Source: Methanobacteriaceae archaeon (GTDB lineage Archaea; Methanobacteriota; Methanobacteria; Methanobacteriales; Methanobacteriaceae). Taken from it: DNA of 40,298 nucleotides. The stretch lies in NCBI GenBank assembly GCA_023249725.1, contig JAHFBZ010000009.1, positions 1 to 40,298 of the forward strand, given 5' to 3'. The notes under the pieces were generated by a model. The model did not search any database, was not told the DNA's origin, and worked only from the letters and a program-made list of their open reading frames with translations. The position numbers were made by a program, and so were the translations under genes. Positions 932 to 40,298 of the stretch are shown piece after piece (the stretch's first letter is position 1; every line of letters begins with the position of its first letter).

Positions 932-1558
932 TTATTCTTTTGAACAAGGGATACAGACTTTAATTCCCTTAACTTCTTTCATTCGGTGTTCTGAAACTAA
1001 TTCTCCACATTTTTGGCAATTAATGGATTTAAAGATGGAAGCTTTAGGGGGCAGAGCCATATTTACTTTTTCTGCTATGAATATTTCTTCTCCATCCATT
1101 TCCAGTATTTTATTGGCCACTGACTGCACTTTCTCATTTAACAGCTCTTTTTCGGATGCGCTGGCTTGTCCAGAAGATACTTTCTTTCTTAAAATGCTCA
1201 ATTGGGGGTCTATTTTATCCATTTCAAATGAATCTTTCAGAGAAATCCGAATACCTTGTCCAGATGATCTACTAAGAAATGTATAAACTTGTTTTCCATA
1301 GTCATTAAAAATAAGATTCCCTTTACCAAATGTACATCCCGTTAAAACTTGAATGGCATCCACAGCACAACTATCATTTTCCACAATGGTCAATATTTCC
1401 TCGTCTTCAGATCTGGTGGAAGAAAGCATATTAATGCCCATTTGAGCTGCTTTATAACCGAGTGCAGATCCAGGACATACATGGCCATGGAAATCGGTCA
1501 CTTCACTGAAATCTTTTATATCCTCGTTATTTTTAGTATTATCAGATTTTCTTTGCAT
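932..1558 (-). CDS. FmdE-family protein with C-terminal zinc-binding domain
   Basis: The 208-residue protein has the FmdE-domain signature: 'FHGHVCPGSALGYKAA' near residue 23 and 'ENDSCAVDAIQVLTGCTFGKGNL' near residue 60, followed by 'NDYGK'. The C-terminus carries CQKCGE...CIPC, a TraR/DksA-like four-Cys zinc site. FmdE proteins are named for a gene in a formylmethanofuran dehydrogenase operon, but no Fmd/Fwd subunits are next to it, so a structural role in that enzyme is not implied. The start codon has a clear AGAGGA ribosome site upstream on the minus strand. An acidic, N-rich N-terminus of about 15 residues precedes the domain. Confidence 0.87.
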   Translation of the reverse strand: MQRKSDNTKNNEDIKDFSEVTDFHGHVCPGSALGYKAAQMGINMLSSTRSEDEEILTIVENDSCAVDAIQVLTGCTFGKGNLIFNDYGKQVYTFLSRSSGQGIRISLKDSFEMDKIDPQLSILRKKVSSGQASASEKELLNEKVQSVANKILEMDGEEIFIAEKVNMALPPKASIFKSINCQKCGELVSEHRMKEVKGIKVCIPCSKE

Positions 1559-1681
1559 TTTTTCCTCTTATTTCTTATTTTATTTATTTAACTGATATCT
1601 AAATTTTTATTAAATTATTTAAAATTTTTCAGTTTTTTACCTGTAAAAACTATAGTATCGTAAATTTTAGTATTTTCAAGA

Positions 1682-3013
1682 CTAATATTTGCCAAAAAAC
1701 CTCATCAATTTATAAATAGAATCTGTAGATGGGTGTGCTTCTATGAAATTTTCGAAATCATAGGTTTTATGGCCTAAGCGCATCAGCATAGAAATATAGG
1801 CCATATTGTGCCGTGCTGAAGGTGTTATAGAGTACAATTTTTCCAATGACCCACTATCTAAATCAACTTCCATCTGTGTAAAACCGGTTTTGCGGGATAG
1901 GACTTTCCAGAAAGATCCTGGTCCAGCGGTGCCTGGAATTTTACCAGTTACTTTATTTTCAACTTGCTGATCATTAGAATTTTTATTCTCATGGGTGTTT
2001 TTTGAATTTCCTGGACCTAAAAAAGCTACATCATAATCCAATGAAATAGAATGGGGCACATATTCGTAATTCGCCTGGGCAGAAATTCCTAGAGCGTTCC
2101 TAGCAGCCACTATACCTTCCATACGGGCTATGGGTGTGCTCCCTATTCCACCTACCACATCTCCTGCGGCGTAAATATTCTCATGGCTGGTTTGCATTTT
2201 TTTATTTACCAGAATTTCTCCGTGTCGGCCTTTTTTTACCAGACCCTCTACTAATTCTGAATTAGGGATAGTACCCGTGGCCATGAGAACGGTTCCCTCA
2301 AATGTACCCTCACTGGTGATGGCACCTTTTTCAGTTATTTCTACCACATCCACATTCTTATGAATATTCACTTTTTCTAAAAGATTTTTGGCCACGAAAT
2401 CACTTACTTCAGAATCAAGGACATTTAAAAATCCAGTTCTACATAAAACATGTACTTTGGATCCTAGTGATGAGAAAATTCCTGCGAATTCCGCAGCAAT
2501 CACTCCACTCCCTACAATTATCAACTTTTCAGGCAATTCTTCCAAATCAAGGATATCCGAATAGGTTAAAGACATTTCAGCGCCAGTTATGGGTGGATAA
2601 AATGGCCGAGTACCCGTGGAAATAATCAGCTTGTCATAATGGATTTCATGGGCATTGACTTTTACAAATCCATCATTAAGAATTGCTTCCCCATAAATCA
2701 GATTTACTTCTGCTTCCAGTATTTCTTTTTCACTCACATGTCTTAATTTACTCAGAGTTTCTTTAACACCATTGGCTACATTTTTATACTCGAATTCCGG
2801 GTTTATATTGACTATTTCTCTCTTCTGAAAGTTTTCAGCATCATTTAAGAAGCGGGCCACATCTACCAGCCCACAAACCATCATACACCCTTCATTTAAA
2901 CAAGTACCGCCCATATGTTTTTTTTCAATTAAGGTGATATCTTGATCTAATTTTGACAATTCTAGGGCTGCAGCACGCCCGGCAGGGCCTCCCCCAATTA
3001 TTACCACTTTCAT
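1682..3013 (-). CDS. FAD/NAD(P)-dependent oxidoreductase, dihydrolipoamide-dehydrogenase-like
   Basis: This 443-residue class I pyridine-nucleotide disulfide oxidoreductase has an N-terminal FAD Rossmann motif GGGPAG (residues 7-12), the redox-active disulfide motif GGTCLNEGC (Cys38 and Cys43), a second NAD(P) Rossmann fold with GSGVIAAE, and 'YAAGD' for FAD. After the disulfide the usual IPSK is replaced by MMVCG, adding a third cysteine at 47. The C-terminal dimer domain has 'HPSTDS' where family members usually have HPTxxE. An N-rich insert lies near residues 343-355. No 2-oxoacid dehydrogenase genes are visible, so a classical E3 role is unlikely; substrate unknown. An AAGGAG ribosome site supports the ATG start. 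Confidence 0.83.
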   Translation of the reverse strand: MKVVIIGGGPAGRAAALELSKLDQDITLIEKKHMGGTCLNEGCMMVCGLVDVARFLNDAENFQKREIVNINPEFEYKNVANGVKETLSKLRHVSEKEILEAEVNLIYGEAILNDGFVKVNAHEIHYDKLIISTGTRPFYPPITGAEMSLTYSDILDLEELPEKLIIVGSGVIAAEFAGIFSSLGSKVHVLCRTGFLNVLDSEVSDFVAKNLLEKVNIHKNVDVVEITEKGAITSEGTFEGTVLMATGTIPNSELVEGLVKKGRHGEILVNKKMQTSHENIYAAGDVVGGIGSTPIARMEGIVAARNALGISAQANYEYVPHSISLDYDVAFLGPGNSKNTHENKNSNDQQVENKVTGKIPGTAGPGSFWKVLSRKTGFTQMEVDLDSGSLEKLYSITPSARHNMAYISMLMRLGHKTYDFENFIEAHPSTDSIYKLMRFFGKY

Positions 3014-8340: not shown

Positions 8341-8463
8341 TGAATTTAATCTTAATAATGATTATCAATGCCCAATATCTACTTGGGGCGGTTAATATCA
8401 AATAATAATATCATATAATTCTAAAATACTCATTTAATTTAAATATAAAACTGTGGTGATGAA

Positions 8464-9645
8464 ATGATTATGGATGGAAAGTTTGGAAAATATGGGGGAA
8501 TTTTCGTCCCGGAATTAATTATTCCAGCACTTGAAGAGCTTGAAAGTGCATTTTTAAAATATAAAGATGATAAACAATTTAATCAGGATTTAGACTTCTA
8601 CTTAAAGGAATTTGCAGGAAGGCCCACTGGCCTGTATCTGGCCAAAAACCTTTCAAAAAAATTAGGATGTAAAATATACCTCAAACGGGAGGACATGCTC
8701 CATACTGGTGCCCATAAAATAAATAATACTCTAGGTCAGGGATTATTGGCCCGATATATGGGTAAGGATAGAATAATAGCTGAAACGGGCGCGGGCCAGC
8801 ATGGAATTGCTACGGCTGCTGTCGGGGCCATGTTGGACATCCCAGTGGATGTTTATATGGGTAGTGAGGATGTGGATCGGCAGCGTCTTAATGTCTTTAG
8901 AATGGAAGTTTCTGGTGCAAAGGTGATTCCGGTAGAAAGCGGTGCCAGAACGCTTAAGGATGCAATAAATCAGGCCATGAGGGACTGGATTACTAATGTG
9001 GAAAATACTCACTATTTGATAGGCTCTACTATGGGCCCTCATCCTTACCCTGCCATGGTAAAACATTTCCAAACCATAATTGGAAAAGAATGCCGTAAAC
9101 AAATTTTAGAACTTGAAAATAACCTTCCAGATACAATTATTGCTTGTGTTGGTGGTGGAAGTAATTCTATTGGTATATTCTCAGAATTCGTGTCTGATAA
9201 GGATGTGGATTTGATTGGTGTGGAAGGTGGTGGAAATGGAATTGAAAGCGGCCATCACGGTGCCACTCTATGTGCCGGAAGTGAGGGAGTTCTGCATGGA
9301 TCATTATCTTATGTTCTGCAGGATAATGATGGCCAGATTACTGAAGCCCATTCGGTTTCTGCAGGATTGGATTATCCTGGTGTAGGACCAGAACATTCCT
9401 ACCTTAAAACTATTGGAAGGGCTAATTATGTTTCTATTACTGATGAAGAAGCCCTTAAAGGATTCCAGCTTTTATCCAAGTATGAGGGCATAATGCCTGC
9501 CTTAGAAAGTGCTCATGCGGTGGCCTATGCTGAGAAATATGCTAAAATGCCGGAAAATAAGGGAAAAACAATCATAGTGAATCTTTCGGGAAGGGGAGAT
9601 AAAGACATGTTTTTAGCGGCTAAATTTCTGGGGGTGGAAGTATGA
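8464..9645 (+). CDS. trpB: Tryptophan synthase beta subunit (TrpB1 type)
   Basis: TrpB (393 residues) condenses indole with serine using PLP. '[14 protein letters not shown]' contains the PLP lysine (Lys85), 'ETGAGQHG' the catalytic Glu loop, 'GGGSNSIG' the phosphate-binding loop, and '[19 protein letters not shown]' the COMM-domain-side motif of TrpB1. It is adjacent to trpA and of normal length, so it is the TrpA-partnered form and not TrpB2. GGTGAT lies just upstream; an alternative ATG six bases downstream (8470) would be spaced slightly better. The 123 bp before it hold no recognisable gene. Confidence 0.97.
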
Positions 9646-10630: not shown

Positions 10631-11677
10631 GTGATTACATATATTCAAAAAATAGTTTCTGGGAAAGATTTAAGTGAAGATGAGGCCTTTCAATGTATGG
10701 GGGAGATGATATCTGGAAATGCCAGCGATATTCATATAGCTGCCCTTTTAGCAGCCTTAGCCACCAAAGGTGAAACTGTAGATGAAATAACTGGTTTTGC
10801 TAAGGCCATGAGAGGAACCTGTACTCCCCTTAATGTTTCTAAAGATGTGGAATTAGTTGATACTTGTGGTACTGGGGGCGATACCCTTAAAACTTTTAAT
10901 GTAAGTACTGCCGCAGCTGTAATTGCTTCTTCGGCAGGAGTTAATGTGGCCAAGCATGGTAATCGGGCAGTCACCAGTTCCTGTGGTGGTGCGGACATAT
11001 TAGAAGCAGCAGGTGTTAAAATTGACGCTTCTCCTGAAATTGTATCTAAATGCCTGGAGGAATCAGCCATGGGGTTTATGTTCGCTCCTAATTTTCACCC
11101 AGCAACCCGAAATGTAATGCCTGTCCGCCACGCTTTAGGTATAAGAACAGTTTTCAATATTTTAGGCCCACTAACATCTCCTGCTGGAGCTAAAATACAA
11201 CTTTTAGGAGTATTTGATGCTAATTATGTGCAAATAATGGCTAATGTTCTTAATAATCTTGGTGTCGAGCAGGCCATGGTAGTACATGGTTTTGATGAAA
11301 AGGAAGAAGAAGGAATGGATGAAATTTCCAATGTTGGTCCTACACTGGTTGCATTTGTTGATCAGGGTAGTATTGAAATAAAAAAATTAAATCCTGAAGA
11401 TTTTGGAATTCAAAAAACTAAAAGTGATCTTATTAAGGCCCCGGAAACTCTGGAAGAAAATCTTGAAATTTTTCTGGATGTTTTAAATGCTAAGAACGAT
11501 TCTATCGTTGACAAAGCTCGTTTAGAAATTGCTCTGGCCAATGCCGGCGCTATTATATATTTATCCGGAAAGTCCAATAATTTGATTGAAGGAACTGAAA
11601 TTGCTTATCAAGCCGTTAAATCTGGAAAATCAATTGAAAAATTAAGAGAATTTATTAAAATCAGTAAATTAGCATAA
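10631..11677 (+). CDS. trpD: Anthranilate phosphoribosyltransferase
   Basis: TrpD (348 residues) joins anthranilate to PRPP. It has 'DTCGTGGDTLKTFNVSTAAA', 'VAKHGNRAVTSSCGGADIL', 'HPATRNVMPVRHALGIRTVFNILGPL' and 'DEISNVGPT', all family hallmarks. A TTG at 10628 would be one base after the AGGTGA ribosome site (10621-10626), so GTG at 10631, four bases after it, is the better start. It is last in the cluster, 113 bases after trpA, giving gene order E-G-C-F-B-A-D as in Methanothermobacter. Confidence 0.96.
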   Translation: MITYIQKIVSGKDLSEDEAFQCMGEMISGNASDIHIAALLAALATKGETVDEITGFAKAMRGTCTPLNVSKDVELVDTCGTGGDTLKTFNVSTAAAVIASSAGVNVAKHGNRAVTSSCGGADILEAAGVKIDASPEIVSKCLEESAMGFMFAPNFHPATRNVMPVRHALGIRTVFNILGPLTSPAGAKIQLLGVFDANYVQIMANVLNNLGVEQAMVVHGFDEKEEEGMDEISNVGPTLVAFVDQGSIEIKKLNPEDFGIQKTKSDLIKAPETLEENLEIFLDVLNAKNDSIVDKARLEIALANAGAIIYLSGKSNNLIEGTEIAYQAVKSGKSIEKLREFIKISKLA

Positions 11678-11679
11678 TC

Positions 11680-11709
11680 TCTATTTTATATATTTTATTT
11701 TTTTATTTC
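11680..11709 (+). terminator. T-rich terminator after trpD
   Basis: Within 30 bases of the trpD stop there are runs of T broken by A (TTTTATATATTTTATTTTTTTATTT), the usual archaeal oligo-T termination signal. No hairpin is needed or seen here. Confidence 0.5.
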
Positions 11710-11752
11710 AGCTAATTTTTTATACTACCAAATGAAACTTTTTTAATAAAAT

Positions 11753-11827
11753 AAATTATATATCCTACTTTATACATATTTGAGGCTGGAGCAAGGTAAT
11801 TTTATTATTCAATTACCTTATTTTTTT
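11753..11827 (+). ncRNA. Possible short transcript: TATA box, hairpin and oligo-T
   Basis: In the gap between trpD and the tRNA a TATA-like box (about 11753-11763) is followed, about 25 bp on, by a G-rich start region (GAGGCTGGAGC, 11782-11792). A perfect 9-bp hairpin comes next, AAGGTAATT (11793-11801) with AATTACCTT (11811-11819), then seven T residues (11821-11827). This could be a small RNA of about 45 nt or a second-line terminator for the trp operon. The rest of the gap to 12070 is AT-rich with no other feature. Confidence 0.35.
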
Positions 11828-12070
11828 GCATTATTTTTACTTAATACGACTTTAAATTGATTATTTTTAACAACTTAAAGTCATGTTTGAATTTTATTTT
11901 ATATGATTGTTAAGAATTATAATTAAAAAATTCCACTTATTTTTACAATATAAATTTTAATATTAATTTTAAAATCGAAATTAATTTAGAATAATTAGAA
12001 ATAGTCTTAAAATATTCTAAAAAGAGTAAAAAATATATTTAATGTACTTAATTCAAAATTAAAAGCAAAA

Positions 12071-31991: not shown

Positions 31992-33503
31992 ATGAAGAAT
32001 CTAAAACCCATTTTAATATTATTGAGCTTTTTTGCAATATTGGTATTGTTTACAAGTGGTGTATCTGCTGCTAACTGGACCGTAAATCCTGGAGATAATA
32101 TTCAGTCAGCCATTAATAATGCTTCAGAAAACGATACGGTGACTATAAATGATAATAATGGAACGGACTATATCTATAATGAAAATGTAGTTATTAATAA
32201 AAAACTACAATTGCAGACTAATAATGGCGGGCGGGTAACTATAAATGCCTTAGATTCTTCAAAACCTGTTTTTACCATTAACTCCCCTGGAAATGGATCC
32301 AGTATTATTGGGTTTATAATTACTGGTTCTACCGGTTCTCATGGGATTTATGTTAATACAAATAACTGTCAAATCATTGGAAATACAATCTCAAATAATG
32401 GTGGTTATGGGGTTAATGTGGCTGGTACCAATGTTACTGTAATTAACAATATTGTGTTTAATAATGGTAATGCTGGTTTGGTTGTTAATGGTGTTAATGC
32501 GTCTGTTAAGTGGAATAATGTGACCTTTAATGGTAACCGTGGTTTTAATGGTTGGAGTTGGGATGGTATTAGTGTCACTGGTGCTAATGGGACGGTAATT
32601 GGGAATAATGTTACGGGTAATAGTAGGTCGGGTATTAGTGTGAATGGTGCTAATGCTTTGGTTTTCTTGAATTATTTGGTTCAGAATGGTGGTTATGGTA
32701 TTGGTGTAACGGGTGCTAATGCAACCGTTATTAATAATACTGTGGTTGATAATGGTAATGCTGGTATCGTGATTACTAGTGGTGATAATTCAACTGTTTC
32801 TAATAATACGGTGACTAATAATGGTAACCGTGGTTTTAATGGTTGGAGTTGGGATGGTATCAGTGTAACAGGTAATAATGCAATTATTACTCCGGATAAT
32901 GTTATTCATGATAATAGTAGAAACGGGCTTTATGTTCGTGGAAATAACATTTGTTTGACTGGGTTTAATGTTTATAATAATGGTGGTTACGGTATTGACA
33001 TAGCAGGGACTAATGCGACTGTGATCTATAACTGCGTAACTGGTAATGGTAATGCTGGTTTGGTTGTTAATGGTGTTAATGCGTCTGTTAAGTGGAATAA
33101 TGTGACCTTTAATGGTAACCGTGGTTTTAATGGTTGGAGTTGGGATGGTATTAGTGTCACTGGTGCTAATGGGACGGTAATTGGGAATAATGTTACGGGT
33201 AATAGTAGGTCGGGTATTAGTGTGAATGGTGCTAATGCTTTGGTTTTCTTGAATTATTTGGTTCAGAATGGTGGTTATGGTATTGGTGTAACGGGTGCTA
33301 ATGCAACCGTTATTAATAATACTGTGGTTGATAATGGTAATGCTGGTATCGTGATTACTAGTGGTGATAATTCAACTGTTTCTAATAATACGGTGACTAA
33401 TAATGGTAACCGTGGTTTTAATGGTTGGAGTTGGGATGGTATCAGTGTAACAGGTAATAATGCAATTATTACTCCGGATAATGTTATTCATGATAATAAG
33501 TAG
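31992..33503 (+). CDS. Beta-helix adhesin-like protein, N-terminal part (ends at a frameshift)
   Basis: This frame encodes a signal peptide (residues 1-27; hydrophobic 'ILILLSFFAILVLFTSGVSA') and then right-handed parallel beta-helix repeats rich in Asn, Gly, Val and Ser ('NATVINNTVVDNGNAG', 'ISVTGANGTVIGNNVTGN'), as in methanobacterial adhesin-like proteins. It stops at TAG 33501-33503 because of one extra A at 33498/33499 relative to the upstream repeat copy; the downstream frame (33460-38274) continues the same protein. If the extra base is real, this part alone is secreted as a 503-residue truncated helix without the C-terminal domains. Confidence 0.85.
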   Translation: MKNLKPILILLSFFAILVLFTSGVSAANWTVNPGDNIQSAINNASENDTVTINDNNGTDYIYNENVVINKKLQLQTNNGGRVTINALDSSKPVFTINSPGNGSSIIGFIITGSTGSHGIYVNTNNCQIIGNTISNNGGYGVNVAGTNVTVINNIVFNNGNAGLVVNGVNASVKWNNVTFNGNRGFNGWSWDGISVTGANGTVIGNNVTGNSRSGISVNGANALVFLNYLVQNGGYGIGVTGANATVINNTVVDNGNAGIVITSGDNSTVSNNTVTNNGNRGFNGWSWDGISVTGNNAIITPDNVIHDNSRNGLYVRGNNICLTGFNVYNNGGYGIDIAGTNATVIYNCVTGNGNAGLVVNGVNASVKWNNVTFNGNRGFNGWSWDGISVTGANGTVIGNNVTGNSRSGISVNGANALVFLNYLVQNGGYGIGVTGANATVINNTVVDNGNAGIVITSGDNSTVSNNTVTNNGNRGFNGWSWDGISVTGNNAIITPDNVIHDNK

Positions 33504-33626
33504 AAACGGACTTTATGTTCGTGGAAACAACATTACTCTAAGTGGATTCAATATCTACAATAATGGTGGTTACGGTATTGACATAGCAGGGACTAATGCG
33601 ACTGTGATCTATAACTGCGTAACTGG
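32462..33626 (+). repeat. Tandem 582-bp repeat within the adhesin gene
   Basis: Copy 1 starts at 32462, copy 2 at 33044 (offset 582), and a diverged third begins at 33627. Positions 32462-32916 and 33044-33498 (455 bp) look identical base for base by eye; identity then ends with one extra A in copy 2 at 33498/33499, followed by similar but diverged sequence. The unit encodes a set of beta-helix turns. Confidence 0.9.
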
Positions 33627-36600
33627 TAATGGTAATGCTGGTTTGGTTGTTAATGGTGCTAATGCGACTGTTAAGTGGAATAATGTGACTAATAATGGTT
33701 TCCGTGGTTTTAGTGGTTGGGTTTATGATGGTATTAGTGTCACTGGTGTTAATGGGACGGTAATTGGGAATAATGTTACGGGTAATGCTAGGTCGGGTAT
33801 TAGTGTGAATGGTGCTAATGCTTTGGGTTTCTTGAATTATTTGGTTCAGAATGGTGGTTATGGTATTGGTGTAACTGGTGCTAATGCAACAGTTATTAAT
33901 AATACTGTGGTTGATAATGGTAATGGCGGTATTGTGATTAGTAGTGGTGATAATTCAACTGTTTCTAATAATACGGTGACTAATAATGGTTATCGAGGTC
34001 TAAGTGGTTGGAATTATGATGGTATTTATGTTCGCGGAAACAGCATACAAATATTACAAAATTCTATTATTCAAAATAACTGGCATGGAATTAATGCAGT
34101 AGGCCTTAATTTAAATATTTCTGGAAATAACGTGACCCGTAATATTAAGGATGGTATAAATGTAAATGGTGCTAATGCGTCTGTCATAGGGAATAATGTG
34201 ACTAATAATATTGGCACGGGAGTTTACGTAACTGGTAATGGTGTAATTGTTTCTAATAATACTTCAAAAAACAATCAGTATGGAATTTACTTTTATAATA
34301 GTTATGGTGTAATTCGGAGTAATGATTTAATTGGTAACCAGTATGGAGTTTACCTTTCTAACTCTAATGCTACTATTAATTTCAACAGAATTATTGGAAA
34401 TAGTAAATATGGGCTGTATAATTCTGGTAATGGGATCATAAATGCAACAAATAATTGGTGGGGCTCAAATAATGGTCCAATAGTTTCATCAATCATGCCA
34501 AGTGATATTTATGTGGTCGGAGGAAATGTAACATACAATTCCTGGCTAGTTTTAAATATAACTGCCAGCCCTCCAAGTACGAATAATAGTTCCACAATTA
34601 CTGCAGATGTGACTCATAATAATGTTGGTGAAGATACTTCTTCTCAAGGAAATATTCCAGATAATATTCCAATAACTTTCGTCACGAATATAGGTACTAT
34701 AAACAGTACCTCATATACTCGAAGTGGAAAGGCAAATGTAATATTTAACCATGGAACCTCCATTGTAGGACTAGCAAATATTATAGCTACTTTGAATAAT
34801 CAAACTGTAATTACTAATGTCACAAAACCACTAACAGTTGCTGTTAGTCAAGTGGGAGGTTCTTATAATACTACTAAAAATGTGACCTTAACTCTGATAG
34901 AGCCAAACTGCAACTCAACCATCTATTATACTCTAGATGGTTCAGATCCTCGAGTAACTGGAATTGTTTATTCAAATTCTATTATAATTAACACTACAAC
35001 AACACTTAGATACGTTGCCGCTGACCCTATAATGAATTGGGGCCCGGAATACAACCAAACTTATGTAATAGACAATATTCCTCCAATAGTTAATGTAAAT
35101 ATTCATGGTGGTGTTTATAATACTACTCAAATTGTGAATTTGACTGTATTGGATAATCTTGATCAAAATCCAATAATATATTATACTACCAATGGCAGCG
35201 ATCCAACAATCTCAAGTCAAGTATATACTGGACCTATAACTCTTCAAATGAACTTTACTACTAGGAATATTTTTAATCTCAAATTCATGGCAGTAGACAG
35301 TTTGTGTAATCCGGCATTGATTCAAAGTGAAACTTATATTTTAACTCTTCCAGTAGTAAATACTCGTAATAACAACACCTATTCCTTGATTCAGAATGCT
35401 GTAGATGCTAACTCAACCATGGGTGGAGATGTCATTGAAATATATTCTGGAACATATGTGGAAACGGTTATGGTAAATAAAAAACTCTCAATTAAATCTG
35501 TTTTTGGAAATAATGTGACAATTGGTTCATCAGATCCAAATGGCAATATTTTTACCATAAATAATAATGGAAGCGATTCAGTAATTCAGGGTTTGAATAT
35601 AAATTGTAATATCATTTTAAATGCTAACAACTGCACTATCTACCAGAATAACATTATTGGAAATGGAACACACGGAATCATTACATCCAATTCATATAAT
35701 AACACTATATTATACAATACTATAACCTGTAATGGTTTCAATGGAATCCAAAGTAACTTTAGTTCCAATAACATTTATGGAAATACAATATCTGGATGTG
35801 AAAGTGGAATTTATTCTGAAAATTCGAATAATAGCATTGTCAGTAATATCTTGATAAATAATAACTATGGAATTTGGACCAATAATTCTACAGATACTAT
35901 CCACTTCAACAGGATAACTCAGAATACTTACGGACTTAGAAATGATATGGGCACTGTAAATGCAACTAATAATTGGTGGGGCACTAATAATCCAGGTTCT
36001 AATGATTTGTGGCTAGTAAGTGGAAATGTTACCTATGATCCATGGTTGGTTTTGAATTTAATTCCTTCAAACACTAATTCTGGTGGAAATGCCAGTGTGA
36101 CTGCAGATTTAACCCAGGATAACCATGGTGAAAGTACCTTATCTCAAGGATTTATTCCCGATGGAACAATGGTAAACTTTAATTCAAACTTTGGAACCAT
36201 TCTTAACACAGCATATACTATTAGGGGCCAAGCAGTGACTATTCTTAATTTGAATAGTACGCAGGCCCAAAATGTCACGGTTTCCGCTTCACTGGATAAT
36301 CAGTCGGTTTCTGCGACGGGACTGATATCCACGGGCTTTGCAGTGCTAAATGTTAATAGTACGGCCATAGATAATGCCACTGGCCTAACACTTAACACTA
36401 CCTACACCATACCTCTGAATAACTCGGTGACTTGGCTTAGTGTTCTCTGGATTAATAATGGTCTGTTCTCCGAAGAATTACAGATAATTGTGGATGGAAC
36501 GGTAGTGCAGAATAAGTACTTCTATAATGCTGCTTATACCACTTGGAACAGCACTTACTCACCATCTGTGTTTGCGGCGATTGTAGATGCTAATAAGAAT

Positions 36601-38274
36601 CTGCCGTTTGTTTCAGATACTACATCCTTTTGGAATAATATCACAACGACCTATAATTTAACCAGTGTAGAATTAACATTCGTCCAGAATCATCGCCAAG
36701 AGTTTATTGATAATTTGACGGTGAATATGGTTTATAATGGTGTGTCTGGTTTAAATTTGACGGTGACAGATCCTAATAACACTACTAATGTGGTTAATCT
36801 GACTTTTCCAGGGAATGTAATTAACCGGTCTAGTCAGGTAATCTATCAAGGTTCTCCATATGAAGGAGTGAAAAGTTTTGCCATAGCCACGACAGATGTG
36901 ACTAATGATGTTTTGGGTTACTGGTTGGATCAGTACTCTAATTATCAAAATAGTAGTGTCATGTCTAATGTTCATGGTACTTTCTTAACGGCTTTAATGG
37001 TGGAATATCTACATGATCAGAATGCAAATAATATGGCAAATCAATATAATGTTACCTGGAGCCGTACCAGTCCAGTTATAGTTTCTGTAGGTGAAAGTGC
37101 CTATGAAACTTACCTGACTTTGGAATGTGATCATAGTATGGGAATGACTGTAGTAGGTACAATAGAAAATATAATTGGATTCAACTATGAATGTTCTTAT
37201 GCGATTTCACTTATGGAATACGCAATAATGAATTCGGCATATGGAAATGCATCTTATCAGTCATATTCAACTAATGGGGCTTTTGGTTCTGTAACGATGA
37301 ATTTGTTCTATGCATCCTTAAATAATAATACGGAATCATTTTTGAAGGACAATTTTATAATAGTAAAATCGATATATGATAATAATGATTTCATGGTTAT
37401 TGATCTGGAAACAGGTATTGTAAGGGATATTAATACTGTTAATAACTTCTGCGGTGCTTATCAGGGTATTAATTTCATTCGCTTTATTTCAGGAGGTTAT
37501 AGTGCTCATGTAACTAATAGATATGAAATGGATAATTTAGGGAACTTTAGTTTCTTTTGGAATGGTTTAGGGAGGATTTATATTACATCTTCTCTTAATC
37601 CTGATGCTCAGATATATGCTGATGATTTATTAATGATTACCGGCCCAGATGGATCGATATCTCATCAATTTTCAGATTGGAGTGCTGTTCATCCGAGCCC
37701 TGCTCTGGATATTACAGGTATTCTTAATCCATGTGATCTTAATAGTATCCAAGTGGAAGTGTGTGATATTTTTGGTGCTTATATTGGCTGCAGTACATTG
37801 ATTTTAGTTCAGTCTAACTCTGCTTTAAATCAGCCTAAAAATATCAATACTACTGAAATTATTCAATTATGTGCAGATGTTGCTGGATCTGCACTTATCA
37901 CTGCAGCAGTTATAGGCGCGGTTATAACTGCTCCTGCATGGGCAGTAGGTGGGGCAGCAGTTTTGGGAGTTGCTTTATGTGCATATGGTGCGGGGGTCTT
38001 TGATGATTGGACTAATCCTAATGCATGGATTAAGGCAGGGATTTCTATAGGTACGTCTCTGATTCCGGCATACTCTGCGGTTAAGGGATTAACTTTTATT
38101 TCAAAAGCATCTACTATAATCATGAAGGACAGTGTGATATTTACAGGTGGTCAATATGTTGCTAAGAATTCACTGATTGGTGGTTCTTATTCACAAGTAA
38201 CTAAAAATATGCTAGGCGCGTTTGGAATTAGTTATTCTATGAATATGTTTTTGGGCGGATTATTGGGAAATTAG
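33460..38274 (+). CDS. Beta-helix adhesin-like protein, C-terminal part, with hydrophobic C-terminal tip
   Basis: The protein continues in frame from AGT at 33499; the ATG at 33460 is only the first start in this frame and has no ribosome site. Domains in order: beta-helix to an NNWWG motif (about 34450); invasin-type Ig-like domain (about 34555-34830); two chitobiase-C-terminal-like repeats ('YYTLDGSDP' and 'YYTTNGSDP', 34850-35350); second beta-helix with another NNWWG (to about 35985); second Ig-like domain (36060-36330); a large uncharacterised domain (36400-37480); a beta-rich junction ending 'GAYIGCS' (to about 37800); and a tip of about 140 residues with Ala/Gly-rich hydrophobic helices. 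It is probably surface-displayed; it may bind glycans and host or neighbouring cells. Confidence 0.85.
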   Translation: MQLLLRIMLFMIISRNGLYVRGNNITLSGFNIYNNGGYGIDIAGTNATVIYNCVTGNGNAGLVVNGANATVKWNNVTNNGFRGFSGWVYDGISVTGVNGTVIGNNVTGNARSGISVNGANALGFLNYLVQNGGYGIGVTGANATVINNTVVDNGNGGIVISSGDNSTVSNNTVTNNGYRGLSGWNYDGIYVRGNSIQILQNSIIQNNWHGINAVGLNLNISGNNVTRNIKDGINVNGANASVIGNNVTNNIGTGVYVTGNGVIVSNNTSKNNQYGIYFYNSYGVIRSNDLIGNQYGVYLSNSNATINFNRIIGNSKYGLYNSGNGIINATNNWWGSNNGPIVSSIMPSDIYVVGGNVTYNSWLVLNITASPPSTNNSSTITADVTHNNVGEDTSSQGNIPDNIPITFVTNIGTINSTSYTRSGKANVIFNHGTSIVGLANIIATLNNQTVITNVTKPLTVAVSQVGGSYNTTKNVTLTLIEPNCNSTIYYTLDGSDPRVTGIVYSNSIIINTTTTLRYVAADPIMNWGPEYNQTYVIDNIPPIVNVNIHGGVYNTTQIVNLTVLDNLDQNPIIYYTTNGSDPTISSQVYTGPITLQMNFTTRNIFNLKFMAVDSLCNPALIQSETYILTLPVVNTRNNNTYSLIQNAVDANSTMGGDVIEIYSGTYVETVMVNKKLSIKSVFGNNVTIGSSDPNGNIFTINNNGSDSVIQGLNINCNIILNANNCTIYQNNIIGNGTHGIITSNSYNNTILYNTITCNGFNGIQSNFSSNNIYGNTISGCESGIYSENSNNSIVSNILINNNYGIWTNNSTDTIHFNRITQNTYGLRNDMGTVNATNNWWGTNNPGSNDLWLVSGNVTYDPWLVLNLIPSNTNSGGNASVTADLTQDNHGESTLSQGFIPDGTMVNFNSNFGTILNTAYTIRGQAVTILNLNSTQAQNVTVSASLDNQSVSATGLISTGFAVLNVNSTAIDNATGLTLNTTYTIPLNNSVTWLSVLWINNGLFSEELQIIVDGTVVQNKYFYNAAYTTWNSTYSPSVFAAIVDANKNLPFVSDTTSFWNNITTTYNLTSVELTFVQNHRQEFIDNLTVNMVYNGVSGLNLTVTDPNNTTNVVNLTFPGNVINRSSQVIYQGSPYEGVKSFAIATTDVTNDVLGYWLDQYSNYQNSSVMSNVHGTFLTALMVEYLHDQNANNMANQYNVTWSRTSPVIVSVGESAYETYLTLECDHSMGMTVVGTIENIIGFNYECSYAISLMEYAIMNSAYGNASYQSYSTNGAFGSVTMNLFYASLNNNTESFLKDNFIIVKSIYDNNDFMVIDLETGIVRDINTVNNFCGAYQGINFIRFISGGYSAHVTNRYEMDNLGNFSFFWNGLGRIYITSSLNPDAQIYADDLLMITGPDGSISHQFSDWSAVHPSPALDITGILNPCDLNSIQVEVCDIFGAYIGCSTLILVQSNSALNQPKNINTTEIIQLCADVAGSALITAAVIGAVITAPAWAVGGAAVLGVALCAYGAGVFDDWTNPNAWIKAGISIGTSLIPAYSAVKGLTFISKASTIIMKDSVIFTGGQYVAKNSLIGGSYSQVTKNMLGAFGISYSMNMFLGGLLGN
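33498..33503 (+). other. Frameshift point in the adhesin
   Basis: Copy 1 reads GATAATAGTAGAAAC (Asp-Asn-Ser-Arg-Asn); copy 2 reads GATAATAAGTAGAAAC. The single extra A turns AGT-AGA into AAG-TAG and stops translation. It may be a true mutation, on/off variation by recombination, or an assembly error in a near-identical repeat. Confidence 0.85.
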
Positions 38275-38312: not shown

Positions 38313-38993
38313 ATGAGTGAAACTGCTGGTCTTACATTTATCGGTTTTGGGGTTTTAGGGTTTTTTGTTATTGCTATCATATTCATTTTTTATGAGGTGA
38401 CGATATTCAGGAGACTGGAAGAGATTTTGGGCATTAAAATGAAAAGATTGGATTGTAATCATATGGCCTGTTATACTTATGAGGGGCGAGCTTGGCTTTA
38501 TTTAATTATAGTTTCTATATTTATGATATTCTGGTTTTATCCGGTTGTTATTAGTTTTAATAATTTTCCAGCTTATGTAGGCTTGTTCTTCACAGGCATT
38601 TACCCCTTGCTGATTATGATTATGAGGAGCAATATTTTCACTGATGATAGTATTCCTTCGGCGAGAAATCCTGTTTATGTAGGTCCTAATTTAGTGAGCG
38701 GCGGGCCAGGGTATAATTCAATTCATTATCTTTGTTTTTCGGCCTCAATTGGTTTAGCATCCACTTTGTGGGGATTTTCCATGTTGAATTCGCCGGATTC
38801 GGCCACTGCAGGTATTGCTTTAGTTTTTTTTGGTTTAGTGTTTCAGACGTTGGTACTTTTCCCTGATGTGATTAATTTGGTGTCGCCCTGGGATCTCAGG
38901 ACTAGTAAAGGATTATTCTTCATGACTGGATTTAATATTACTATTATAGTCTTTTTGCTGGGTTTGTCGGCTATTTTGAGAACTATTTATTGA
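38313..38993 (+). CDS. Polytopic membrane protein, candidate partner/immunity protein
   Basis: I do not recognise this 226-residue family. It has about six hydrophobic helices (near residues 7-27, 60-80, 86-104, 137-158, 166-187 and 202-222) and a soluble loop between helices 1 and 2 with 'RLDCNHMACYTYEGRAW'. It starts only 38 bases after the adhesin stop with a GAGGT ribosome site, so it is probably co-expressed. A membrane protein directly after a protein with a membrane-active-looking tip fits an immunity role, but it could equally be an anchor or export partner. Confidence 0.7.
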   Translation: MSETAGLTFIGFGVLGFFVIAIIFIFYEVTIFRRLEEILGIKMKRLDCNHMACYTYEGRAWLYLIIVSIFMIFWFYPVVISFNNFPAYVGLFFTGIYPLLIMIMRSNIFTDDSIPSARNPVYVGPNLVSGGPGYNSIHYLCFSASIGLASTLWGFSMLNSPDSATAGIALVFFGLVFQTLVLFPDVINLVSPWDLRTSKGLFFMTGFNITIIVFLLGLSAILRTIY

Positions 38994-39016
38994 TTTATGA
39001 CATTTTAAATCTTTAA

Positions 39017-39511
39017 AAAATCTTTAATTATATTTTCCGTGAAAGTGGAGTATATGCTGATGATAGGTTAGATATCACTATAACTGGGGTAATAAGTCAT
39101 ACATTTTCTACTCCAAGTGGTGTTCGCCGTGACCCAGCTATTGACATCACGGGTATTGTTCAAAAAGGGTATAATAGTATTGATGTTAAAATTGTGGATA
39201 TTTATGGTGCTTATATTGGCTGCAGTTCACTATATGTTATTCAAACCAACTCTGTTATTCAACCTTATAAAAACCTAAATGACACATGGAACCTAATTAA
39301 TGATCTTCGTAATGGAAACAAACATGTCAACTGGGAAAAAGTGAAGTATTGGGGACCGAAGGCACTCGTAATTGGTGGAACAGTAGTGGTGACCGCACTG
39401 GGTACTCCTGCGGCGGGTGCAGCATATTATTATGGTGCTTCTGCATTAATAATTGGGGGTACTGCATGGGATGGTTATAATGGTGACCATTATGGTAGTT
39501 GGTTCCAGTAA
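39017..39511 (+). pseudogene. Orphan adhesin C-terminal module (no start codon of its own)
   Basis: The frame is open from 39017; the first possible start is GTG at 39194, inside a conserved domain. Residues 'VYADDRLDITITGVISHTF...DPAIDITGI...VKIVDIYGAYIGCSSLYVIQTNS' align with the adhesin's junction ('IYADDLLMITGPDGSISHQF...PALDITGI...VEVCDIFGAYIGCSTLILVQSNS'). After that the tips differ: here a shorter tip with 'ALVIGGTVVVTALGTPAAGAAYYYGASALIIGG' and 'DHYGSWFQ'. It is either a decayed paralogue end or a silent alternative C-terminal cassette. Confidence 0.75.
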
Positions 39512-39600: not shown

Positions 39601-39945
39601 ATGCTTAGAAAAAGAGATTTTATAACATTAGGGATATGTTTTATGATGTTCTTAATCGCTATTTCAGTGTGGGGCTCATTTTTGTCAGTTATCTCGGGAT
39701 CTGTAGGATTAGTATTCTTTATAAGCTATATTTATGAATATAAAACTCAAAAAAAAGATAATTTTTTTAAATCATTTGGTTTAGGATTTGTTGTGCTATT
39801 AATCGCGGTTTTAATATGGGTATATAATTCGTATATCTCCATTATTTTTGGAGTATCTGGATTTATAATTGTTATGGGTCTTATACACGAATATAAAACT
39901 CAAAAAGATGAAAAACAAAAAAATAACTTTAAAAAACAACATTAA
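39601..39945 (+). CDS. Small membrane protein with internal duplication
   Basis: The 114-residue protein has four hydrophobic helices in two similar halves, each a helix pair ending in a charged segment: 'FLIAISVWGSFLSVISG...YEYKTQKKDN' and 'LLIAVLIWVYNSYISIIFG...HEYKTQKDEK'. It has a good GGAAG ribosome site. It follows the orphan C-terminal module by 90 bases, as the larger membrane protein follows the adhesin, so it is a candidate partner of that module. No known family is recognised. Confidence 0.65.
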   Translation: MLRKRDFITLGICFMMFLIAISVWGSFLSVISGSVGLVFFISYIYEYKTQKKDNFFKSFGLGFVVLLIAVLIWVYNSYISIIFGVSGFIIVMGLIHEYKTQKDEKQKNNFKKQH

Positions 39946-40013: not shown

Positions 40014-40298
40014 TTATTTTTTTATATGTTTTTGTGTCCAGTTTTTCATTTTGTGGTGTAGGTAGGTGAGTATTCCGGTTATGGTTTTGTATTTCTTTTT
40101 GATTTGTTCTGGTTCTGTTTGTCTGTAGTAGTTTTCTACTGTGTTGGATGTTCGTGGTATTTTATGATGTTCCATGTAGTTGGTGAGTCTTTTATAGTCG
40201 GGTACGATTTTTTGTTTAATGAATCGCTGTAAAACACGTGGTATTTTATTAAAATCTTTTAATAAATTGTTTAGTCTTTGATTGCTGGTTTTTAAGTT
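40014..40298 (-). mobile_element. Transposase, C-terminal part (runs off the window)
   Basis: The minus strand is open from the window end for 95 codons to TAA at 40014-40016. The translation ('KIPRTSNTVENYYRQTEPEQ', 'KTITGILTYLHHKM') matches the C-terminus of a transposase type common in Methanobacterium genomes; I cannot name the IS family with certainty. The terminal inverted repeat would be expected near 39950-40010, but the other end is outside the window. Confidence 0.6.

Follow-up and report, generated by a model that had tools for sequence, protein, structure and literature searches.

The adhesin gene, its orphan tip and the 22-bp junction

The window, by which we mean the whole stretch of DNA analysed (40,298 nucleotides), is an entire contig. 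Genes for an FtsZ-like protein, ribosomal proteins and alaS (named from their translations) lie upstream of a large adhesin gene, behind which come a membrane protein gene (MP1), a start-less fragment ending in a second tip and a second membrane protein gene (MP2). The contig breaks off within a repeated element, so further cassettes could lie past 40298. The features are as follows.

31992–33503, + strand: 5′ portion of the adhesin gene, encoding a Sec-type signal peptide and β-helix repeats
33460–38274, + strand: main adhesin frame (1604 aa), comprising β-helix/NosD repeats, chitobiase-C domains, a pre-tip domain, a β hinge domain and tip 1
36868–37452, + strand: pre-tip domain A1, conserved and unannotated, ahead of the hinge
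37603–37860, + strand: β hinge domain of the adhesin, homologous to the 5′ half of the orphan
37773–37794, + strand: 22-bp identical junction TGGTGCTTATATTGGCTGCAGT, copy 1, exact match
37846–38274, + strand: tip 1, of a hydrophobic hairpin class common to the C-terminal tips of other adhesins (14 genomes)
38313–38993, + strand: MP1 (226 aa, ~5 TM segments), ribosome-binding site (RBS) GAGGT, family A3, predicted partner/immunity protein
39017–39511, + strand: orphan module, a start-less hinge-domain fragment with the unrelated tip 2
39205–39226, + strand: 22-bp identical junction TGGTGCTTATATTGGCTGCAGT, copy 2, exact match
39290–39511, + strand: tip 2, short, with one hydrophobic segment, unrelated to tip 1
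39601–39945, + strand: MP2 (114 aa, ~4 TM segments), two duplicated hairpins, RBS AAAGGAAG, unrelated to MP1
40014–40298, − strand: end part of a repeated, probably transposable element with ~14 matches in the genome

From its start at 31992 the adhesin reads on until a 1-bp insertion near 33497 breaks it into two frames; aligning the repeat at the break to the adjacent repeat copy places one extra A there. The two frames overlap within 33452–33573; the extra base may be an error of sequencing, a sign of decay or a means of switching the frame, and this frameshift in the assembly is a caveat on the reading favoured below. Pfam matches in the adhesin are limited to β-helix/NosD/CHB_HEX_C domains, and a Pfam search with the piece of repeated element at 40014–40298 gave no match.

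The original prediction had singled out a 22-bp identity between the adhesin and the orphan, and this is borne out: the two copies of TGGTGCTTATATTGGCTGCAGT match exactly on the + strand, such an identity occurs 0 times in shuffled sequences (0 expected by chance) and the window contains no third copy with up to 3 mismatches allowed. As had also been claimed, both lie at the same position of the aligned proteins, encoding GAYIGCS in the same reading phase. The 22-mer is conspicuous because the flanking DNA, once aligned, is just 60% identical upstream and 56% identical over ~66 bp downstream. With the aligned amino acids fixed and codons chosen independently, a run of ≥22 bp arises in ~0.03% of synonymous redraws; given the 60% codon match at other common residues, the 7/7 codon match within the 22-mer has p ~0.03. 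Both values make amino-acid conservation alone an unlikely source of the 22-mer, albeit not overwhelmingly so. The identity is real and probably non-accidental, and alone is no proof of recent exchange.

The orphan is indeed a C-terminal module, sharing ~50% amino-acid identity with the C-terminal β domain of the adhesin. Its frame opens past a TAA at 39014–39016 and stays open to 39511, with no initiator at the 5′ end; the earliest start-like codon is a GTG at 39194, which has no ribosome-binding site. The tips had been expected to diverge just after the 22-mer. Hinge homology in fact extends ~65 bp further (9/22 aligned residues identical), and the divergence is then complete: beyond ~37860/39290 a similarity search detects nothing between tip 1 and tip 2. 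Because the hinge copies are ~50% identical in protein, any past exchange in the window would be old, or the cassette of outside origin.

Pfam and NCBIfam searches with tip 1, tip 2, MP1 and MP2 returned nothing above cut-off, leaving the known toxin and immunity families unmatched. Solid relatives of tip 2, which is short and may be truncated, are absent from 139 genomes; for MP2 there is a weak relative in G037, adjoining an A1/tip locus. Scanning genome contigs with the window's C-terminal sequence recovered no relatives. A structure of hinge and tip 1 predicted without an alignment reached a mean pLDDT of 35.

Such a fragment might also remain if the 3′ end of the adhesin gene had been duplicated in tandem together with its membrane gene and had then decayed, with the 22-mer as a remnant of conserved protein sequence. 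The hinge halves are homologous throughout at ~50% amino-acid identity, the orphan has no start and the codon-matched chance of the 22-mer (p ~0.03) is not negligible. Yet duplication predicts a tip 2 like tip 1 and an MP2 like MP1, with homology running evenly through the tips, the outcome named beforehand as pointing to duplication and decay. This is not what we find: tip 1 and tip 2 are unrelated, and so are the downstream membrane proteins, making plain duplication a poor fit. The tip 2 and MP2 frames are, moreover, still open and MP2 has its RBS. A second locus, described below, has abrupt identity-to-nothing boundaries that are impossible by decay, and we regard the duplication scenario as distinctly unlikely.

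Tip exchange at a second locus and the window locus in sister species

The window's own genome (G000) possesses a second polymorphic locus on contig C2 (L027, 4409–17865), with three tip modules and a number of TPR genes; one of the TPR proteins has a membrane-spanning N terminus. The 3′ part of the C2 adhesin (8389–9004) and a start-less orphan (11218–11833) are 99.4% identical over 616 bp, beyond which their tips are unrelated; TPR genes lie behind each. In the third module, 819 bp match the adhesin at 88% identity before the two diverge.

Comparison with the sister species G136 is instructive. The C2 orphan is orthologous over its full length in the two genomes (hinge 573/616, tip 375/381), and the adhesin tips are identical at 408/411 positions. 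The DNA directly before the adhesin tip differs in G136, with 72% identity over its final 50 bp, and the difference ends at a common 12-mer, AATGCATTTCCA. Within G000 the adhesin hinge matches that of its own orphan at 612/616 positions, closer than the ortholog-to-ortholog hinge match, and hinge and tip have therefore recombined at a 12–15-bp boundary within the genus. At the level of assembled sequence, C2 and G136 thus demonstrate tip exchange at a short hinge motif; the G136 locus is split over contigs C17 and C14, across which we infer the joining of stalk to tip. Since the switch occurs at a 12-mer, a boundary shorter than the 22-mer of the window suffices. The boundary motif in this system is GAYIGCS or LGNAFP. 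G136 is also without the third C2 module and its TPR genes, owing to a clean 3.9-kb deletion in which the next gene is truncated too.

At the window locus itself, the adhesin is absent from both sister species, G135 and G136 (alaS 95–96% identical). G135 (L019, G135:C9, ~950–2482, reverse strand) has kept the adhesin promoter and first ~35 bases, from which we conclude that the locus predates the species split and that G135 lost the stalk. Behind the remnant come two small membrane proteins, paralogous to each other and possibly left-over partner genes. A kinship of MP2 with these proteins at the same place found no support (z = −0.5 and 3.4).

The proposal that the window switches tips by recombination at the 22-mer therefore holds in part. 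A start-less orphan, a common hinge, an unrelated tip, an own downstream gene and the same layout elsewhere all speak for it, although no recombinant at the window's 22-mer was found, the sisters having no adhesin there and tip 2 no solid relatives.

Pre-tip domain, tip classes and partner genes across Methanobacteriota

The A1 domain offers a handle on the wider family. A profile of A1 matches 104 of 152 Methanobacteriota genomes across four families, including 93/139 within the family. Searches of Pfam, NCBIfam and the PDB gave no convincing match to A1, and PDB profile searches with A1 and the tips yielded no matches. The tips that follow A1 form at least 11 clusters with no relation to one another. 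Matches to the C terminus of the window adhesin in seven further genomes from the family cover the tip only and end other large adhesins; a profile of the tip-1 class is found in 14/139 genomes. In G012 a C39 peptidase domain precedes a tip-1-class tip, which fits the expected tip release. The A3 profile, representing the MP1 family, matches in 52/139 genomes, with members usually directly behind tip-1-class tips.

The arrangement seen in the window recurs. A tip scan of the genomes led to three Methanosphaera loci, and L120 of genome G111 (genus g13, with matches pointing to Methanosphaera) repeats the window layout of adhesin tip, MP1-like protein, orphan tip fragment and second MP1-like protein. 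L148 has three consecutive stalk–tip–partner units, and L144 a shortened second copy with a different tip and a TPR partner.

Partner genes were counted for 50 A1 ORFs in fetched neighbourhoods: a small membrane protein lies within 450 bp downstream in 34/50, versus 9/117 control genes, and TPR proteins come next in ~9/50. Partner class is coupled to tip class in 100/188 pairs, against a mean of 45 and a maximum of 99 in 5,000 shuffles, a figure inflated by common descent of whole loci and built on rough partner clusters, since BLAST joins some short membrane proteins by composition alone.

Several further classes deserve description. At L155 and L156 (G125, G115) the tip matches phage lysozyme below threshold (E = 0.001), and the membrane protein behind it has a zinc-ribbon-like CxxC motif at its N terminus. 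A separate class with a conserved ...YDRDNAIYI...TKxETYxYF motif (L119, L122, L134, L145, L150, L152 and L153) precedes tiny proteins of 60–110 aa with 2–3 TM segments; it is widespread in genus g10 and is a candidate new toxin family. At L119 (G103:C83) one tip is followed by three tandem copies of a 90–94-aa membrane protein, which suggests partner-gene amplification.

Two explanations other than a weapon must be weighed against these data. Silent cassettes could serve antigenic or phage-receptor variation, in the manner of silent pilin copies, the downstream genes being incidental; the surface location, the silent copies and the gene-conversion-like homogenisation of the C2 hinge (99.4%) would suit this. 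Against it, nearly every tip has a partner gene, partner class tracks tip class and the changes are confined to the extreme C terminus, so that we hold this variation scheme to be very improbable. Alternatively, the tips might be membrane anchors or assembly modules, with the membrane and TPR proteins as insertion partners or chaperones, and a swap would alter anchoring without arming the cell. Tip 1 is hydrophobic, Pfam and NCBIfam recognise no toxin domain in the tips, and the M. ruminantium genome paper (PMC2812497) interpreted the TM segments at the C termini of 14 adhesin-like proteins as anchors. Several tip classes, however, have no hydrophobic segment (for example, L148) and a membrane partner nonetheless, the TPR partners are predicted to be soluble, and the diversity of tips, the partner duplications and the start-less spare tips are hard to account for by anchoring. 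The anchor explanation thus appears weakened; it is the main rival, and an unlikely one.

Relation to known systems and a proposed mechanism

The original prediction had likened the switch to Rhs/CDI. This comparison stands for the mode of working and fails for membership. The orphan cdiA-CT/cdiI modules of CDI (Poole et al. 2011, PMC3150448) are, like the window orphan, start-less 3′-end fragments of a big gene, homologous to it before the tip, unrelated within the tip and followed by a translatable small gene of their own; in CDI a deletion can join orphan to main gene, and transposable sequences lie close by, as they probably do here. The window thus contains the elements of a CDI-style orphan module, namely a start-less tip fragment, upstream homology to the main gene and a translatable partner. 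It differs in having no CdiB (no CdiB-like gene was seen among the neighbouring frames in the window), no FHA/haemagglutinin stalk and no VENN motif, and in belonging to an archaeal single-membrane cell with a β-helix stalk. Rhs loci and their silent cassettes share the variable tip behind a conserved core, the tandem spare tips and exchange at a conserved boundary motif, whereas the window adhesin has no YD repeats, PxxxxDPxGL boundary or Rhs cage domains (Pfam search).

VARTIG of the Thermococcales (Makarova et al. 2021, PMC8416519) is likewise archaeal and centred on a large surface protein with a hypervariable C terminus, which smaller downstream genes match, in a polymorphic-toxin-like layout. 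There, Ig domains define the modules and the authors found no close counterpart outside Thermococcales (PMC8416519). The window adhesin, in contrast, has no Ig/CARDB match and has relatives in Methanobacteriaceae and other Methanobacteriota; here spare tips precede non-homologous partners, and exchange is visible inside one genome. On these comparisons the window system is a member of neither CDI, Rhs nor VARTIG.

The broader polymorphic toxin systems (Zhang et al. 2012, PMC3482391) are closer in plan, with stalk, pre-tip domain, variable tips, partner gene and standalone cassettes all described in the part of that survey considered here; the same part calls them rare or sparse in archaea and mentions neither Methanobrevibacter nor Methanosphaera. 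Our family has interchangeable tips on a secreted stalk (at least 11 tip clusters, and one tip that sits on differing hinges in the sister species) and dedicated downstream partners matched to the tip (34/50 versus 9/117, with class coupling). Standalone donor cassettes have exchanged tips at C2, and the window has the layout alone. The tips and partners differ from those of polymorphic toxin systems in matching no named family. The adhesin-like proteins of gut methanogens (PMC2812497), being large and secreted, belong broadly to the same class as the window adhesin; as far as the portion of that paper used here extends, they are taken as adhesins or anchored proteins, and a tip–partner cassette organisation is not found there. 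The novelty claimed is that of the family as analysed, and some of its loci may already be mentioned in a survey of polymorphic toxins in archaea that appeared in mBio in 2019 (cited in PMC11452385).

We favour, as reasonably likely, the reading in which the end of the window is a polymorphic toxin/immunity-like surface-effector locus of an archaeon, a methanogen of the Methanobacteriota, with the orphan as a silent cassette. A secreted β-helix adhesin would display the A1 domain, the β hinge and a variable C-terminal tip, the tips presumably acting as toxins against neighbouring cells, into which they would be delivered. MP1, behind tip 1, is most likely an immunity protein that would shield the producer, and MP2 would be its counterpart for tip 2. 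The silent cassette behind MP1 would consist of the start-less hinge piece, tip 2 and the translatable MP2, which we infer to be expressed for protection. Were the 22-bp junction in use, hinge recombination across its in-phase identical bases would remove tip 1 and MP1 (1,432 bp), after which the stalk would end in tip 2 and be followed by MP2. In this way the cell would store spare tips, start-less but with expressible partners, downstream of the gene and load them by recombination at the hinge.

To our knowledge, weapons between methanogens are almost unknown. Stalks, tips, partners and spare cassettes, built from unnamed domains, here form a set that spans the lineage, with an exchange caught between sister species, and this set suggests a home-grown archaeal counterpart of bacterial toxin/immunity (CDI/Rhs-like) weapons. 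We put at about even the chance that Methanobacteriota of gut, rumen and thermophilic habitats own a contact-dependent toxin/immunity armoury, composed of β-helix adhesins with A1, many new toxin classes, immunity proteins of membrane or TPR type and spare cassettes that swap tips at short hinge motifs. Such an armoury would assign to many 'adhesin-like' genes in the methanogens of the human gut and the rumen a function that is concrete and testable, extend that function to the small membrane and TPR proteins downstream of them and open a route to the discovery of new archaeal toxins.
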